Shown here piece by piece: positions 1,796 to 8,432 of a stretch of DNA of 32,239 bases. The position numbers and the translations under genes are program-made. The notes under the pieces were generated by a model. That model saw only the letters and a program-made list of their open reading frames with translations, did not search any database and had not been told where the DNA came from. Positions within the stretch are counted from its first letter, which is position 1, and every line of letters begins with the position of its first letter. Source of the DNA: Akkermansia muciniphila (GTDB lineage: Bacteria > Verrucomicrobiota > Verrucomicrobiia > Limisphaerales > UBA9464); contig CAMDGV010000053.1 of assembly GCA_945898055.1 (NCBI GenBank), forward strand, positions 1 through 32,239, written 5' to 3'.

Positions 1796-2240
1796 ACAAA
1801 ACAGTTTCACCTCGCGGTGGAAACGCCGGTTGGTAACCTTGTCGCGGGTAGGCAATGGCTGCAGGCGACGTTTGCCAACCTTTTTAACCGGCTGCGGGGC
1901 GAACGCGGTCACCTGTTTCAGGGGCGCTACAAGGCGTTGCTGGTCGAGCTAGGCTGGCCGCTCGGCGCTCAGGCATTTAAGATGACCCTGGTCAAGGACC
2001 ACACTCGGTCGACAACGAGCCGAGGGTCGGAGGCCAGCGGGGCGCGGGAAATCTGCGAGGCACAATGGGCCGAACTTCTGGGGCGCGGTTGCCGCGTGTT
2101 ACGACACGAACTCACGGCGGCGCCCCGACCCCAAAATCAGCCGACTGGAAAGTGGCGGCCGCGGTGTTCTTGAAGCGCCGCACCTAGGCTAGCACCGGGT
2201 GGCTCGCACGGGAGTTGCGATGGACGTGGCCGCTTTCCGT
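1796..2240 (+). pseudogene. REP-associated tyrosine transposase (RAYT, Y1_Tnp) remnant
   Basis: The plus strand reads FHLAVETPVGNLVAGRQWLQ, then FANLFNRLRGERGHLFQGRY and KALLVE. These are characteristic of RAYT/IS200-like transposases of Verrucomicrobia, which handle single-stranded REP DNA with a catalytic Tyr. The segment that normally follows (HLNPVRAG region) is deleted, and the reading jumps to LGWPLGAQAFKMTLVKDHT. A later frame carries the typical tail KSADWKVAAAVFLKRR, interrupted by TAG. The N-terminal HUH part is missing upstream of 1796. The deletion, frame change and stop show a dead copy. Confidence 0.7.
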
Positions 2241-2704
2241 GGAATTACCGTGATGGCGTCGAGTTTCCGGCCGGCAGCATAGACATCGATCTCCGAGAGG
2301 AAACCGCTCCGACTCCACTCGGGTTTGTTCGCTGACAGGTCAAACAGCGATACTGACCGATCAAACCGTTCCGGGAGTGGATGCGCGAACCGTGCTTGCC
2401 GCCTTCTCCCAAAGCCAACGGATCGACTTTGGCAACCTCCCGCCAACTCTTGGAGAGATCGGCGGCCTCAGTCATCGGAGCAGATTCGGCATCCGACGCC
2501 CACAGCGTGTAGCGTTGAGACGACAGCGCGCCCGACTACCAGATATAGACGTTGACCTTGGAGATGCGGGTGTTTCGACCGAAATCCACGAGCACACGCG
2601 CATTCCCTTTCGTGTCGAACCACGTGCTGTTGGCCGAATCGTCGCCGCTTGTGGCAAACTTTCCATCATTCAGTCGTGGCAGATTGAAACCACGTGCGCC
2701 CGCA
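2190..2704 (-). pseudogene. Discoidin-like (F5/8 type C) domain protein remnant
   Basis: On the minus strand one frame reads GFNLPRLNDGKFATSGDDSA, then NSTWFDTKGNARVLVDFG and ISKVNVYIW. It then meets an in-frame TAG near 2536 and resumes as SGALSSQRYTLWASDAESAP. A frame change leads to RFAHPLPERFDRSVSLFDLS and GFLSEIDVYAAGRKLD. The order (DG...T.G, VDFG..ISKVNVY, R.TLWAS, SEIDVYA) fits a galactose-binding/discoidin-like beta-sandwich common in exported verrucomicrobial proteins. It is broken by at least one stop and one frameshift, and it abuts the thrC remnant directly. Confidence 0.5.
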
Positions 2705-2950
2705 CAGCATGGCTTCAAACTCGCGCAGGCTAGGCTTGATTTCGCGCGTCTTGCCGACGTGGCCCACGACCGCATCGAGCGTCTTCAAGCCGTTGCCGGC
2801 TATGCAGAGGACCTCAGAGCCATTCGCCGGAATTTTGCCCGAGGCAATGAGTTCCTTGGCCACGCCCACGGTCACACCGTCCGCTGGCGTGCCAATGGCG
2901 AGGGATTTCGCAATTACCCTCCGCATCAAAAAAGCAATTTTCTATCAATT
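2705..2950 (-). pseudogene. thrC: Threonine synthase (thrC) 3'-end remnant, copy A
   Basis: The minus strand encodes RRVIAKSLAIGTPADG joined to GVTVGVAKELIASGKIPANG, then NGLKTLDAV and IKPSLREFEAML. These match the C-terminal end of threonine synthase, the PLP enzyme that turns O-phosphohomoserine into threonine: LAIG.PADG.YAL...GGVTV..LK.L...GNGLKT.DAV...LREFEALL. The PLP-lysine half is absent, and the middle is deleted (about 49 bp more than in copy B). It cannot be functional. It shares the sequence from 2742 to 2950 with copy B at 5568-5825, including about 20 bp beyond the homology to thrC. Confidence 0.65.
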
Positions 2951-3040
2951 GGACGCTACGCGGTTTACTTTTTAAATGTTTCTATTCGCACTGTCCGCCC
3001 ACTAACGCAAAACCCGTGTTAACTGATATTTCCGAGTGGT

Positions 3041-3047
3041 GTCTAAC
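3041..3047 (-). other. Possible integron-type core site (R'-like GTTAGAC)
   Basis: The minus strand reads CATCTTTCGTTAGAC, matching the GTTRRRY core of attC right ends. The TAG inside it is the stop codon of the 104-aa ORF. I could not find the partner RYYYAAC half at normal distance, so this is only a motif match, supported by similar sites at 4947 and 5515 in the same orientation. Confidence 0.25.
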
Positions 3048-3357
3048 GAAAGATGCGGAGGCCTTTGCACTCTGCGGTCAGCGAAGCCATGGCTGTGGGT
3101 GCGTGCCTATGGATAAATGCAATCTTGCGGGCAATTTCTTCGCGTGTATACAGACGGCTCTTATCGCGATCTGCACTGAATGGTGAGATTTCCGAAATGG
3201 GTGCATCGGGATTCTCGCTCCAGCGCCTCAAGAGGATGTCGATGCCTTGAATTTTGAACAGCATAGATCGTTGGTTGGATGACTGATAGGAACTGATAGG
3301 AATTTGCTTTCTGGACGCTACGCGGTTCAGGGAGAATTGCTTTTGCGTCGGGTTCAT
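3043..3357 (-). CDS. Hypothetical protein, 104 aa
   Basis: No family recognised. The ATG at 3357 is preceded by AAAGGA at SD distance. The protein is basic at the N-terminus and has a plausible helical end (LYTREEIARKIAFIHRHAP). The frame stays open upstream to 3594, but that extension runs through an antisense transposase stub and is unlikely to be coding. The 15-mer GGACGCTACGCGGTT inside this ORF (3313-3327) recurs at 2951-2965 beside the thrC remnant, so part of the ORF may be repeat-derived. It lies in the candidate cassette region, on the same strand as its neighbours. Confidence 0.35.
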   Translation of the reverse strand: MNPTQKQFSLNRVASRKQIPISSYQSSNQRSMLFKIQGIDILLRRWSENPDAPISEISPFSADRDKSRLYTREEIARKIAFIHRHAPTAMASLTAECKGLRIFR

Positions 3358-3562
3358 CTCGATTCCTTTCTGCGCCTTTTTGAGGGCATGGCAAAGGCTT
3401 TTTAAAGCCACGCTGCGCGGTGTCCTTGCCGTGTTTGCTGAACACGGTTGTGGGAATGGCCGGCGCCTTCGGTGTAGGGCAAACTTGCCGGGGGTGACGT
3501 GACTGCGTTTTTTCGGGCCGTGTGAAGTGTTAGTCTGGGGCCAACAAAGAAAGGCAACAGAC

Positions 3563-3602
3563 ATGAAAGGCAAGCGGTATACGACCGAAGACAAGATTCG
3601 GA
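3563..3602 (+). mobile_element. IS3-type transposase OrfA stub
   Basis: ATG at 3563, preceded by AAAGAAAGG, reads MKGKRYTTEDKIRI. This is the usual beginning of IS3-family OrfA (helix-turn-helix subunit), which normally continues into an AD.GK...CREHNIS-type sequence. Here homology ends abruptly at about 3602, where the 3' end of the antisense superoxide dismutase gene begins. TGAAGTGTTAGTCTGGGGCC at 3524-3543 could be the left terminal repeat (inference). The rest of the element is gone, so this is a deletion scar. Confidence 0.5.
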
Positions 3603-3603
3603 T

Positions 3604-4329
3604 TTACTTCGGCTGCTTGGTGACGGATTGGAACCGGCGGTTGGCCTCGGACCAATCAATGAACTGAAGGAATTTCTGCGCGTAGTCCGCTTTGCGATTC
3701 TGGTAATCGATGTAGAAAGCGTGTTCGTAAGTATCGATGACCACGAGCGGAACCGACATCCAGAGCGGCCCGTGCGCGTGTTCGTCGCTGATGAGATTGT
3801 ACAGCCTGCCGTTGACCGGATGCACCACCAGCATCGCCCAACCCGCGGCGGCCTTTGCGCTAGCGAGGAAATCGTCCGCCCATTTCTCGATCGAACCGAA
3901 CCGTTTCTCAATCGCACTGCGGATGGCGGGCGCAGGGTCGTTGGCCTTGAGCGCCAAGCCGTCGAAATAAAGCTCGTGGAGAATCACGCTGTTGCCACGG
4001 CTTGATTTCTGCCGCTGGAGCGTCTCGAAAGCCGCTGCGTCCAGCACCTTGGTTTTAGCAAACTGCTCCTCGAACTGTTTTTCGATGCCGACAAACGCCT
4101 TGAGCGCGCCGCCATAATGCGCGGTGTGATGCGGTGCCACCTGCGCGGCGCTGAGGAAACCGGGGATCTCCCGATGACGGACCGGCTTGGGCGTGCCGGT
4201 GATGAGTCCGCTCCCCGCGGAAAGCGAATCGGGCGACTCCTGCGCGGTGTCCGCGCCCGGAACGAGCAGCTAGCCAGCGAACGCCCCCGAGGATGCAAAG
4301 AGAAAGTTCCGTCGAGAGGTCGTACTCAT
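3604..4329 (-). pseudogene. Fe/Mn superoxide dismutase with Tat signal, interrupted by in-frame TAG
   Basis: From ATG 4329 (AGGA about 8 nt upstream) the frame reads MSTTSRRNFLFASSGAFAG, a classic twin-arginine signal, and then meets TAG at codon 20 (4270-4272). The same frame continues without further damage for 221 codons of a Fe/Mn superoxide dismutase. The metal-binding region shows His residues in PHHTAHYGG and in ILHELYFDGL, and the C-terminal Asp and His in VIDTYEHAFYIDY, where Tyr replaces the usual Trp of DxWEH. SOD converts superoxide to peroxide and oxygen; the Tat signal implies export of the folded enzyme. A GTG at 4140 could start a cytosolic 178-aa form that keeps the ligands but lacks the signal. 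It may be a fresh pseudogene, a read-through gene or a sequencing error. Confidence 0.75.
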
Positions 4330-4358
4330 AGATTGATTCCTGGAGAGTGTGCGAGAAC

Positions 4359-4452
4359 GCCGAACGACCCCAAGCCCAGCGACCCAACCCAGGAGGACGT
4401 TCGATTGTAACCTGGACGCGATGGCCGGCCTCGCTGCAGCGCCTGGTTAGGC
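4359..4452 (-). other. Candidate attC site following the toxin-antitoxin genes
   Basis: On the minus strand the element runs from R''-like GCCTAAC (4452-4446) to R'-like GTTCGGC (4365-4359), 94 bp in all. Just inside the ends, CGCTGCAGCGA and TCGCTGGGCTTGG can pair over CAGCGA/TCGCTG with an unpaired base, as expected of L''/L' of an integron attC. It begins 8 bp after the toxin stop and ends 30 bp before the SOD start, which is where a cassette boundary should be. No integron integrase is visible, so identification rests on sequence pattern only. Confidence 0.45.
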
Positions 4453-4459
4453 GTTGCGG

Positions 4460-4726
4460 CTATTCGCGATAAACGTCCTTCCGGTGCCGGACGCGCTGAA
4501 CCTCGATAATCCGTGACTCCGCGAAAACCTCGTAGATGACGCGGTAATCTCCGACGCGAATCCTGCATGTCCGCTCGGAGCCGGAAAGCTTCTGCGAGCC
4601 GTGTGGCAGAGCGTCGTCGGCAAGCTCGCCGACCGCAGAAACGACATGAGCTACCTCCTGACGCGGTAAGTTCCGAAGGTCTTTCTTGGTCGAGTTGCGC
4701 CATTGAATCTTAAAACGGTCCATCAT
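4460..4726 (-). CDS. RelE/ParE-family toxin of a type II toxin-antitoxin pair
   Basis: An 88-aa protein with the family's length and typical C-terminal signature: CRIRVGDYRVIYEV, then EVQRVRHRKDVYRE. RelE-like members cut mRNA on the ribosome and ParE-like members poison gyrase; sequence alone does not say which. The N-terminal FKIQWRNSTKKDLRNLP is the usual first strand and helix. The start at 4726 overlaps the end of the antitoxin gene by 17 bp, so the two are translationally coupled; a second ATG follows directly. Antitoxin-first order and overlap are normal for such pairs. The stop lies 8 bp before the candidate attC site, which fits the known abundance of such modules in integron cassettes. 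Confidence 0.85.
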   Translation of the reverse strand: MMDRFKIQWRNSTKKDLRNLPRQEVAHVVSAVGELADDALPHGSQKLSGSERTCRIRVGDYRVIYEVFAESRIIEVQRVRHRKDVYRE

Positions 4727-4898
4727 GCTTCAGGTCGGCAATGAATTGGTCGTGAGGAATCACCGGTTCGTCGCGTCGCTCGGCGACTACTGCCAAGTCG
4801 TCCAAATCTTCGAGGAGCTTCTCGTAGTCTTTGATTGGAAGAACGACGGCAGTGCGCTCGCCGCGGTCGTCAGTGAGGTATTGAAGTGTCTGGCCCAT
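4710..4898 (-). CDS. Antitoxin of a type II pair (Phd/YefM or RelB-like)
   Basis: A 62-aa acidic protein: MGQTLQYLTDDRGERTAVVL, then PIKDYEKLLEDLDDLAVVAE. This is the common short antitoxin pattern that precedes RelE-like toxins: an N-terminal strand-helix segment that binds operator DNA, then an acidic toxin-binding helix. It overlaps the toxin gene by 17 bp. Such antitoxins usually repress their own promoter together with the toxin. No strong SD precedes the ATG; the 54-bp leader begins at the candidate cassette junction TTAGGC (4952). Confidence 0.8.
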   Translation of the reverse strand: MGQTLQYLTDDRGERTAVVLPIKDYEKLLEDLDDLAVVAERRDEPVIPHDQFIADLKHDGPF

Positions 4899-4946
4899 GG
4901 AGAAAGGCTACGCCGCCGTTTCCGAGTGTCGAGCGCGCGTAGTGCC

Positions 4947-5054
4947 GCCTAACGACCCAAGCTCAGCAATCAACATCTCCGGTTCCACAACTTGGCTGCT
5001 CCCCACGCTCCGAAGAGTAATCCAAATGCTGGAGCCACTCGGTAGTGGTCGGGC
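4947..5054 (-). other. Candidate attC right end (GTTAGGC) with degenerate left end
   Basis: On the minus strand GCTGAGCTTGGGTC followed by GTTAGGC (4953-4947) closely resembles the end of the site at 4359-4452 (GCTGGGCTTGGGGTC then GTTCGGC). A possible degenerate R'' (GCCCGAC) is at 5054-5048, but its inner arm pairs poorly. The right half is therefore convincing as a repeat, the left half is not. It separates the two-ORF unit above from the toxin-antitoxin unit below. Confidence 0.35.
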
Positions 5055-5161
5055 TGCAAAATCAGTGGATGGAATCCCTGTATGAAGTCAAACACGCTGC
5101 GGCAACACAAATCGTGAGTGAGCGAAATCCTCGCATCATTCTTCTCCATCTGAACCATCAT
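4970..5161 (-). CDS. Hypothetical small protein, up to 63 aa
   Basis: No family recognised. The start region overlaps the end of the preceding 121-aa ORF (ATG 5161, or 5149 for a 59-aa form), suggesting translational coupling. The C-terminal half has a short hydrophobic stretch (APAFGLLFGAWGAAKLW) ending in basic residues, so membrane contact is possible. Its stop codon lies directly before the attC-like right end, and the ORF covers the possible left half of that site. It may therefore be only the coding-looking part of a recombination site. Confidence 0.35.
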   Translation of the reverse strand: MMVQMEKNDARISLTHDLCCRSVFDFIQGFHPLILQPDHYRVAPAFGLLFGAWGAAKLWNRRC

Positions 5162-5501
5162 AAACGACTTCTGCGCTCTCCCGGTCGATAATCATGACCT
5201 GTTCAGCACCGAGGTAGCCTAACCTACGATTTTTGTTCGAATAATGGGCGTACCAGTAAGTGCGGTTCGGAGGAATCGGACCACGATTGTAGCCAAGGCA
5301 TCGAATCGAGTACGGGGCATCCAAAATCCCCAGCGAATCCAAGTTTGGAATGGCCAGCAGCCTCTGTCTTACGGCGTCACTGACTACAAGCGCGGTCTCC
5401 ACACGCTGATAACTCTCGTAACTCACACTGCCATCGGATGAAAATGTCGTCGAACGTTTCTCTCTGTAAACGCTGAAGTCGATTGGTGGTTTTGAGGGCA
5501 T
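5136..5501 (-). CDS. Hypothetical protein, 121 aa
   Basis: No family recognised. The protein is soluble, with ordinary composition and no signal peptide: MPSKPPIDFSVYREKRSTTF at the start, an aromatic-rich middle (NRTYWYAHYSNKNRRLGYLG) and an acidic end. The ATG lies 19 nt after the core-site cleavage point (TTAGAC at 5520-5515). There is no SD, which is common for integron cassette genes. The next small ORF overlaps its 3' end. Orientation matches the SOD and toxin-antitoxin genes. Confidence 0.55.
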   Translation of the reverse strand: MPSKPPIDFSVYREKRSTTFSSDGSVSYESYQRVETALVVSDAVRQRLLAIPNLDSLGILDAPYSIRCLGYNRGPIPPNRTYWYAHYSNKNRRLGYLGAEQVMIIDRESAEVVYDGSDGEE

Positions 5502-5514
5502 GGTGCGTAATGCG

Positions 5515-5521
5515 GTCTAAC
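5515..5521 (-). other. Possible integron core site (GTTAGAC) next to the thrC fossil
   Basis: The minus strand reads ATACCCTGCGTTAGAC. A matching GGGTAT lies 14 bases earlier (5550-5545), giving a short stem. Beyond it the sequence switches to the thrC remnant, as if the outer half of the site had been replaced. This is a motif match only. Confidence 0.3.
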
Positions 5522-5567
5522 GCAGGGTATGGTCAAGCGATTCGATACCCACGCGTCAAAATCAAAC

Positions 5568-5825
5568 TCGCGCGTCTTGCCGACGTGGCCCACGACCGCA
5601 TCGAGCGTCTTCAAGCCGTTGCCGACTGTGCAGACGACCTCAGGACCCTTCGCCGGAATTTTGCCTGAGGCAATGAGTTCCATGGCCGCGCCCACGGTCA
5701 CACCGCCCGCTGCGCTGCCGGTTTTCTTCCGCACGCGCAAGGCGTAGAAGCCGTCCGCTGGCGTGCCAATGGCGAGGGATTTCGCAATTACCCTCCGCTT
5801 CAAAAAAAGCAATTTCCTATCAATT
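5568..5825 (-). pseudogene. thrC: Threonine synthase (thrC) 3'-end remnant, copy B
   Basis: The minus strand encodes RRVIAKSLAIGTPADGFYAL, then RVRKKTGSAAGGVTVGAAME and VVCTVGNGLKTLDAV. This is again the C-terminal region of threonine synthase. About 25 residues normally between the YAL and GGVTV blocks are missing here; copy A at 2742-2950 lacks a further ~49 bp. The reading frame diverges after KTRE. Both copies begin at the same non-thrC junction (a poly-A/T and CAATTT.CTATCAATT stretch), so they descend from one already truncated fragment that was then duplicated about 2.8 kb apart in direct orientation. Confidence 0.65.
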
Positions 5826-5891
5826 TGAATGTCCGTTTTACTCTTGCTCATAAAGGTATCGCCACCTCTTCATTTCCAGCAGGATTCGCGC

Positions 5892-8432
5892 ATGCGGTTA
5901 AGTTTTTTTTTGCTTCGGTGGGTTTCATGGATCGTGCTTTTCCTTGGCCTGACGCCGTCATCGTCGACCTCCGAGCCAGTGATTTTGTCGGTCGATTTCG
6001 CCAAGACCAACGGAATGTTCCGCGCCCTGCATGGTGTAAACAAGGGCCCGCTCGGGCCGGGCGGTCTCCTCGACCTAACCGCCGAACATCGCGCGCTGGG
6101 TATCCCACTCACCCGCCTGCACGATTGTTATTGGCCCAATCCTTATGTGGTTGATATCCACGCGGTTTTTCCTGATTTCAAGGCCGATCCCTCCCTGCCT
6201 GAAAGTTACGACTTTCGGCTGACCGATGAGTACATTTCCGCGGTGCGAGCCACCGGCGCAGGCATTGTTTATCGCCTCGGCGAGAGCATTGAGCACACCA
6301 GCGTGAAACGCTTCGTGCATCCTCCGGCCAACTATGACACGTGGGCGGAAATCTGCCTGGGCATCCTCCGGCACTACAACGAGGGTTGGGCCAGAGGCTT
6401 TCACCACGATATCAAGTACTGGGAGATTTGGAATGAACCGGAGAACCGCCCCGTCATGTGGAGCGGCAACGACGAAGATTACTTCCGGCTTTACCGAGTG
6501 GCCGCAGTCGCGATCAAGCGTGCTTTTCCCCTAGTCAAAGTGGGAGGCCCCGCTGTCGGCGCGAGTGGGCAGTTCGTAGGTGGCAAATTCAAGCCTACCG
6601 ATTTCGTGACGCACTTCCTCCAGTTGTGCCGCACTGCGTCGCTGCCCTTGGATTTCTTCTCCTGGCACTGCTACACCGCCGACCCCAGTGAGTTGGTGTT
6701 GCGCACCAAAGCCATCCGGCAACTGCTCGATGAAAACGGCTTCATAAAAACCGAGAGCCACCTGAATGAATGGAACTACCTTCCCGGCAATTCTTGGACT
6801 CCCCTGGCACGCAATAGCCCGAGTCCCGACCGTCAGCGGTATTATGAGGAGATGTCGGGCGCAGCAGGCGCGGCCTTCATTGCCTGCTCGCTCATTGGAT
6901 TGCAGGATGTGCCCCTGGATATGGGCAACCTTTTCCACGGCGAGGCCGGTGCCTTCGGTCTGTTCAACGAATTCGGCGTGCCCCAGAAGAATTACTTCGC
7001 GGTCCGCGCTTTTCACGATCTCCTGGGCACTCCCCGGCGCGTTAAATCCAACGGGGCTGCTGTAGGTCGTGCCATCGCGGCGGGACTTAACGCCTCGGAC
7101 TCGCAAGCAACCGTACTAATCAGCAACTTTGCCGAGGATCGGTCGGAGTTCCGTGTCGAGCTGAACCACCTACCTTGGAGCGGCGATACCTTGGCTGAGC
7201 TTCGAATCGTCAACGCATACCACAATCCTGATGCCGTGCGGACAGAGACCATCGAATCTCAAAAACCCTATCTATCATTGCGTCTTGCCAAACCTACGGT
7301 CGCCTTGATCCAACTTCGTCCTGCCAAACCAACCGCCCAATACGCCCTTAAGATCACTTCACCCGCCAACCGTCTGGTCTTCCAACGCAATCATGCGGGA
7401 CGTGCCGAGATCCCGATCACTGTCACCACCTCACTGCCTCATTCCATCGTGGAGGCCCGACTTGTCACGGTCGGTCATCCGGAACAACCTTCCTTTTGGA
7501 AGAATCTGGGCGCGGCCAAAGCCGATGGAACTTTCATCGGCCGTCTCGGGGTTGAATCAGGCTGGTATCAATTGGAGCTTCGTGCCACCTCTGCAGCGGG
7601 CGCGATCACCCAATCCAAAGTGGATCGCGTCGGGGTGGGAGAGGTGTTTGTGATCGTGGGCCATTCCGTGGCGCAAGGGGGCGACATCAACCTGCCCGGC
7701 AGCACCGATGATCGAGTGAACACCGTGGCGTTGGACTTGGATTATCCCGAGACGCAACGCAGTTACGAGCGCACCGCTGATACCCAGTTTCTGCCGGAAC
7801 CGGTCGGCGTCCAGTTTGCCAGCGGAGTCCAACCCGCACCCTTTGGTCATGGCACCTATTTCTGGGCGCGCTTCGGCGAGCTTGTGGCAAAAAAGGAAAA
7901 GGTGCCCGTGATGATTTTCAATGCCGGCTTCGGCGGCACCTCTTTGGAGCATTGGGCGAAGTCCGCGCGCGGCGAAGCCTTTGAGCACTCCTTCGTAAAG
8001 TCTCCCCTTCGCATGCCCTACATTAACGTGCGCAACACCTGGCAGCGCTACGTCTCGGTCACCGGCGTTCGCGCCATTCTCGCCGATCAGGGCCAGAACG
8101 ACGCCAACGAACCCGATGCGACTGTCATCGTTAACAATTACCGCACTTGGATAGATCAGGCCCGCAAAGATTTGGGATACGCCGGGTTGGCCGTGGTCGT
8201 GAATCGTCAAACGCCCTACCTGCAACGGACCGTCATTCGCCAGGCGCAGGAGCGCATCCTTCACGAGGTGCCCCATTGCTTCACAGGTCCTGATTATGAT
8301 CTTCTCGCACCTGAGGATCGTTACGATCGCATCCACCTCAGTCTGAGCGGGGCAGAGGGCGCGGCTCGACTTTGGGCCGAAGCTTTGGATTCAGAATTCT
8401 TCTCCAAGTCCTCACCTTTCCAGCCAAGATAA
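5892..8432 (+). CDS. Secreted GH39-like glycosidase fused to SGNH/sialate-esterase-like domain
   Basis: 846 aa from ATG 5892 (AGGA 8 nt upstream). The frame is open to 5829, but residues before MRLSFFLLRWVSWIVLFLGL spoil the signal peptide. Residues ~30-480 form a TIM-barrel glycosidase of clan-A type resembling GH39 beta-xylosidases: acid/base E182 in YWEIWNEPE and likely nucleophile E293 in ESHLNEWNY. Residues ~575-840 resemble SGNH esterases of the sialate O-acetylesterase kind: Ser ~591 in VIVGHSVAQGG, a GFGGTSLEHW block, QGQND, and Asp/His in YDRIHLSLSG. Such pairs would cut and de-acetylate a polysaccharide outside the cytoplasm. Substrate is unknown. It reads C-rich at third positions and is the first intact large gene after the remnants. 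Confidence 0.8.
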   Translation: MRLSFFLLRWVSWIVLFLGLTPSSSTSEPVILSVDFAKTNGMFRALHGVNKGPLGPGGLLDLTAEHRALGIPLTRLHDCYWPNPYVVDIHAVFPDFKADPSLPESYDFRLTDEYISAVRATGAGIVYRLGESIEHTSVKRFVHPPANYDTWAEICLGILRHYNEGWARGFHHDIKYWEIWNEPENRPVMWSGNDEDYFRLYRVAAVAIKRAFPLVKVGGPAVGASGQFVGGKFKPTDFVTHFLQLCRTASLPLDFFSWHCYTADPSELVLRTKAIRQLLDENGFIKTESHLNEWNYLPGNSWTPLARNSPSPDRQRYYEEMSGAAGAAFIACSLIGLQDVPLDMGNLFHGEAGAFGLFNEFGVPQKNYFAVRAFHDLLGTPRRVKSNGAAVGRAIAAGLNASDSQATVLISNFAEDRSEFRVELNHLPWSGDTLAELRIVNAYHNPDAVRTETIESQKPYLSLRLAKPTVALIQLRPAKPTAQYALKITSPANRLVFQRNHAGRAEIPITVTTSLPHSIVEARLVTVGHPEQPSFWKNLGAAKADGTFIGRLGVESGWYQLELRATSAAGAITQSKVDRVGVGEVFVIVGHSVAQGGDINLPGSTDDRVNTVALDLDYPETQRSYERTADTQFLPEPVGVQFASGVQPAPFGHGTYFWARFGELVAKKEKVPVMIFNAGFGGTSLEHWAKSARGEAFEHSFVKSPLRMPYINVRNTWQRYVSVTGVRAILADQGQNDANEPDATVIVNNYRTWIDQARKDLGYAGLAVVVNRQTPYLQRTVIRQAQERILHEVPHCFTGPDYDLLAPEDRYDRIHLSLSGAEGAARLWAEALDSEFFSKSSPFQPR

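Follow-up and report, generated by a model that had tools for sequence, protein, structure and literature searches.

The locus studied here raises the question of why the gene for an exported superoxide dismutase (SOD), apparently sound in its enzymatic part, should carry a single amber codon within its signal peptide. Our analysis covers one stretch of 32,239 nucleotides (the window), and the features on which the argument depends are as follows.

3604..4329, minus strand: Fe/Mn superoxide dismutase gene with a Tat-type signal, interrupted by TAG (translation and domain match).
4270..4272, minus strand: in-frame TAG at codon 20 (L110, the near-identical copy, and the planctomycete relatives have a sense codon here).
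3607..4269, minus strand: intact part after the stop, 221 codons, ligand positions conserved (translation, alignment and model).
4359..4452, minus strand: attC of the toxin-antitoxin cassette, R'' GCCTAAC at 4452-4446 and R' GTTCGGC at 4365-4359 (model, 90.6 bits, and pairing layout).
4460..4726, minus strand: ParE-family toxin reading frame, 88 aa (PF05016).
4710..4898, minus strand: RelB-like antitoxin reading frame, 62 aa (PF18506; the scan used 4709-4898, and the last base of the stop codon is 4710).
4947..5054, minus strand: degenerate attC-like stretch with a good 3' core, TCGTTAGGC, and a decayed 5' half (10.2 bits, E 0.099).

Reading from the ATG at 4329, the gene encodes a Tat-like signal (MSTTSRRNFLFASSGAFAG), the TAG at 4272-4270, 221 sense codons and a TAA at 3604, which confirms the preliminary description of a Tat-type SOD in which codon 20 is a lone TAG and the 221 codons behind it are intact. 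The codon directly 3' of the TAG is CTG (4269), and the next in-frame ATG, GTG or TTG is the GTG at 4140. A Tat signal consists of a twin-arginine motif followed by a hydrophobic stretch; here the motif is present and the hydrophobic stretch is broken by the TAG, such that no Tat signal lies in a single open frame. The product matches Sod_Fe_C (PF02777) at 89.5 bits against a cut-off of 20.9, which identifies an Fe/Mn superoxide dismutase domain, and its closest solved structure is 1coj (E 1.3e-28). In an alignment of the window with 22 of the 78 loci found, H47, H98, D179 and H183 (numbered from codon 21), which we take to be the four metal ligands of Fe/Mn SODs (three His and one Asp), are invariant in all 23 sequences, and the earlier statement that the metal ligands are preserved thus holds. 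The structure model built from 23 aligned sequences has a mean pLDDT of 88.5 and a pTM of 0.86. The start region has not decayed either, since an AGGA is placed 8 nt 5' of the ATG (4327-4341); this motif is absent from the near-identical L110 (2929-2943).

A sense codon at codon 20 had been proposed as the state to look for in homologues, and this is what they carry. None of the 13 relatives examined with upstream sequence (L034-L045 and L110) has a stop in the signal; seven of them (L034-L037, L041, L045 and L110) have a Ser or Ala codon opposite the TAG, and in L038-L040 and L042-L044 the signal is uninterrupted, with the column that matches the TAG less certain. To judge from these relatives, the TAG at codon 20 is a derived state. 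The relatives also speak to the origin of the gene. L034-L040, which are 63-73% identical to the window SOD, are all planctomycete records and resemble it in their Tat-type N-terminus, mature sequence and ligand positions, whereas the SODs of 18 genus-mates are only 26-34% identical to it. The planctomycete genes differ from the window in their uninterrupted signal and in having no convincing match to the attC model nearby (best 15.0 bits, E 0.19). These similarities suggest that the window SOD is an exported Fe/Mn SOD of planctomycete type that was horizontally acquired, probably by transfer between phyla. The viral contigs searched gave no relative, and the 167 plasmid records returned are every one below 60% identity. 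Beyond the window genome (G000) and a 5' part in G041, the search for further copies of the SOD cassette, which covered 320 genomes in the order and 384 in the class, turned up only matches of approximately 27-78 nt inside the SOD; a full intact copy was not found in the genomes searched, and the G041 copy breaks off with its contig at codon 47.

The SOD cassette starts at the R' core (4365-4359) of an attC site directly upstream. This integron cassette context, which is missing from the preliminary description, explains the foreign origin of the gene and helps to explain its dispensability. An attC site is laid out as complementary R'' and R' cores enclosing an L''/L' arm with unpaired bases, and its R' consensus is GTTRRRY; the R' of the window is one base off this consensus, as in several relatives. 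The window site scores 90.6 bits, being itself among the sequences that build the model. Because the alifold structure of that model missed the arms, the layout was tested by hand on 35 copies chosen from the matches, with duplicates and most partial or weak rows left out: pairing was present in 95.2% of 765 cells, versus 18-45% with the arms slid. Covariation is weak: in two pairs both partners have changed, a number equalled or exceeded in 66 of 500 shuffles, and the score was reached by 4 of 500, and the support for the attC rests on complementarity and position. The lone window strand folds no better than its shuffles, 64 of 200 of which equal or surpass it (z -0.42). With one mismatch allowed, the core GCCTAAC by itself occurs at chance level in the window (65 found, 64.4 expected), and Rfam gave no match at the gathering threshold.

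When the SOD and its upstream region were searched in the 320 order genomes, 92 matched; by a manual row count, the match falls in the attC region in 87 of these and is confined to the SOD in the other 5. Many of the matching genomes carry several attC copies at intervals of a few hundred bases, often with cassette-like spacing. An integron integrase over the curated cut-off is present in 9 of 15 carrier genomes, a set picked by hand for good arrays and thus not a random sample, and on G179:C89, G127:C47, G031:C230 and G073:C327 the integrase shares a contig with attC copies at a distance of 0.4-2.2 kb. This attC type, which is highly conserved in sequence and not in structure only, occurs in about 50 of 118 sampled genera (a manual count without SOD-only matches); the main text of an attC taxonomy paper contains no word beginning with Verrucomicrob (PMC8352920). 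The draft genome of the window has no integron integrase over the cut-off (best 80.6 versus 265 bits), and the array is CALIN-like in this respect. An attC 3' of the SOD was not found (positions 2000-6000, filters off), the downstream values on this strand being at most 3.6 bits versus 90.6 upstream, so this copy of the SOD is probably immobile. The same genome has a second attC cluster (L170, G000:C120, 4580-6400), in which small reading frames are separated by two full attC copies and by shorter attC-like elements, and the genome that shares the SOD cassette has a good integron integrase of 454.5 bits on another contig (L226, G041:C37).

The boundaries of the cassettes are visible as breaks in similarity. 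The toxin-antitoxin cassette, with the attC-like stretch at 4947-5054 as its 5' boundary, is identical together with its attC at 592 of 617 nt (96%) to G167:C421, a contig from another family; this match begins about 24 nt before the end of one attC and extends to the core of the next, and the sequence that follows the attC in G167 differs from the window's SOD. The start of the SOD matches G041 at 96% over 170 nt from the core onward, while the attC before the core is only about 70% alike (a value implied by 87% over 264 nt). The 5' boundary of the SOD cassette is thus at the R' core, before which another genome has different sequence. Since similarity breaks at the attC core on both sides, the SOD is the cargo of a cassette. 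The cassette region is flanked by direct repeats (2742-2942 and 5568-5816) that are 91-92% identical and whose minus-strand translation presumably resembles the C-terminus of threonine synthase; the two best thrC loci of the genome show no similarity to these repeats, and the reading frame at 5423-5851 has no Pfam match. The protein of 867 aa encoded at 5829-8432 joins a GH39-like part to a SASA esterase part. As for an empty site in sister genomes, the best match to the adjacent cyclase gene in 18 genus-mates is 50% over 145 residues, too distant for such a comparison. In the portion of PMC9668308 available to us, the prevalent contents of archaeal cassettes include toxin-antitoxin systems, at 10.5% of those with predicted function, and proteins with a signal peptide, at 13.2%, and integrons and SOD are mentioned together in a reference title only. 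A description of any SOD cassette was not recognised in the literature at the level of titles, abstract starts and term counts, which is no proof of absence in print.

The age of the stop can be approached through L110, a contig of a metagenome-assembled genome labelled Akkermansia that is identical in sequence to G041:C96, from a genome of the window's order. After the attC core, 163 of 170 nt are the same in the window and in L110 and 7 are different, and their shared reading frame of 141 nt has four differences, one of which creates the TAG. In the mature SOD, the window deviates at 1 of 63 columns that are invariant in 10 relatives; among these relatives the count is 0 or 1 for eight, and 13 and 6 for the two that are most distant. 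With a closer set of relatives, the window deviates at 4 of 101 columns and its four nearest relatives at 0 to 5. The earlier assertion of no other decay is sound inside the frame; immediately beyond it one element, an attC 3' of the SOD, is missing. Neutral divergence was taken as 1.4-2.1%, i.e., half of 4/141 and of 7/170 on the assumption of an equal split, and approximately 3.2% of weighted single-base changes in the SOD frame produce a stop. At this divergence 0.30-0.44 further stops are expected and the probability of none is 0.74-0.64, so a lone stop is likely even without selection. With an assumed one indel per ten substitutions, the probability of no further stop or indel is 0.29-0.16 for a TAG as old as the branch itself; therefore, either the mutation is young or the indel assumption is too harsh. 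The intact frame after the TAG accordingly counts as weak evidence for continued function, and at so small a divergence the lone stop does not testify to function. Of the three options in the preliminary description, a very recent nonsense mutation is best supported by these comparisons, as relatives have no stop at this position and no more than 7 of 170 nt separate the window from its nearest copy; the stop would be lone because it is young. A codon-usage search for other interrupted genes across the genome had no power, the bias being 0.13 bit per codon: none of 1493 stops passed, and just 62 of 2188 windows in long reading frames passed the same threshold.

Based on the interpretation of these data, we consider it likely that the TAG arose by recent nonsense mutation in an integron gene cassette that had been acquired horizontally, leaving a freshly broken, redundant copy of SOD. 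In the proposed sequence of events, a planctomycete-type exported Fe/Mn SOD would have entered, as an integron gene cassette, a lineage that the label of a metagenome-assembled genome of the same order places in Verrucomicrobiota, and settled behind the toxin-antitoxin cassette. One recent substitution in the host lineage would then have turned codon 20, which lies within the hydrophobic part of the signal peptide, into TAG, and translation from the ATG at 4329 would now end in a 19-residue peptide and no enzyme. The genome has two other SODs with no internal stop within the match; one of them lacks an obvious signal, and the other has a twin-arginine, Tat-like N-terminus. The latter (G000:C9) resembles the window SOD in being an Fe/Mn SOD with a twin-arginine N-terminus, but it has no internal stop and is only 27% identical. 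The TatC match in the genome reaches 117.6 bits, below the cut-off of 132.7. Loss of the cassette enzyme may be tolerated because these two intact SODs are kept and because chromosomal integrons leave many of their cassettes unexpressed. That a redundant foreign gene should lose its signal frame is unremarkable. Counting against the proposal are the mature sequence free of relaxation, the start region with its AGGA, the incomplete tRNA set, the failure to find a full intact copy of the cassette in the genomes searched, and the attC strand that by itself folds no better than shuffles.

Other readings of the TAG have to be weighed against a recent nonsense mutation. One of them, unlikely but not negligible, is that the metagenome assembly has a consensus error at the TAG, or shows a minority strain allele there, and that the gene is intact in the population. 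The genome is a draft of 136 contigs, the frame after the TAG is fully intact, and two of the differences between the window and L110 lie within 4 nt at the TAG, all of which would fit; by our own estimate, however, a consensus error that makes a stop in one given gene should be rarer than pseudogenes, and non-functional genes are put at 2-8% in free-living bacteria in the available part of an integrase survey that quotes this figure (PMC2426708). We regard it as improbable that some enzyme is still made, whether exported after near-cognate read-through of the amber codon or cytosolic after a restart at the non-standard CTG 4269 or at GTG 4140. The intact downstream frame and ligands and the CTG directly after the TAG speak for such expression, but none of the 13 relatives, L110 included, has a stop in its signal, and the machinery of the host argues against it. 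ARAGORN returned no CUA anticodon among 44 distinct tRNAs (from 43 tRNA matches in the draft genome, a set that is incomplete since tRNA-Ile was not found), release factor 1 is present (447 bits), and TAG terminates 21 of 161 long reading frames in a 432-kb sample and is thus an ordinary stop in this genome. The suggested amber suppressor, and the read-through that would depend on it, consequently find no support. The suggested switch to a cytosolic enzyme started at GTG 4140 fares no better: inspection by eye revealed no Shine-Dalgarno-like sequence upstream of this codon, which is residue 44 of the post-stop protein and lies three residues into the modelled helix that bears the first ligand (41-72), and starting there would remove these three residues as well as the well-ordered residues 21-40 (pLDDT block means of 92 and 97).

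A more elaborate proposal is that the cassette is live and regulated at translation, with a few ribosomes continuing past the amber codon of the signal or restarting to give little exported and some cytosolic SOD, while shuffling by integrons disperses silent cassettes of this kind to serve as a reserve; we consider this very improbable. Least credible of all is that there is no cassette, i.e., that the upstream repeat of 94 nt is another dispersed palindrome and that ordinary homologous or illegitimate transfer brought in the SOD. The lack of an integrase over the cut-off and of an attC 3' of the SOD, and a single attC that folds no better than shuffles, would suit this reading, yet the pairing layout of the 35 copies, the position of the repeat beside integrase genes in relatives and the breaks in similarity at the core on both sides all oppose it.

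Our findings on the probable recent nonsense mutation in a cassette-borne gene provide a clean case in which an exported antioxidant enzyme was carried in by a cassette, probably between phyla, and would then have been lost in a host with SODs of its own. They also indicate that integrons with a common attC type are frequent in this verrucomicrobial order, and they warn that, where the nearest copy differs by only a few percent, a single stop in a gene that is perfect in other respects should not be taken as a sign of recoding. Among known systems, the locus can be compared with the cassettes of sedentary integrons and with CALIN, with which it shares an attC, a toxin-antitoxin cassette, foreign single-gene cargo and, in a draft genome, no integrase over the cut-off; it is unlike these arrays in having only one well-preserved attC and a SOD with no detectable attC of its own. 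A parallel for the stop itself is offered by intI2 of class 2 integrons, which carries an internal stop codon according to the available part of PMC2426708 and is likewise an integron-associated gene silenced by one such codon, although intI2 encodes the integrase, whereas the gene interrupted here encodes a cargo enzyme.
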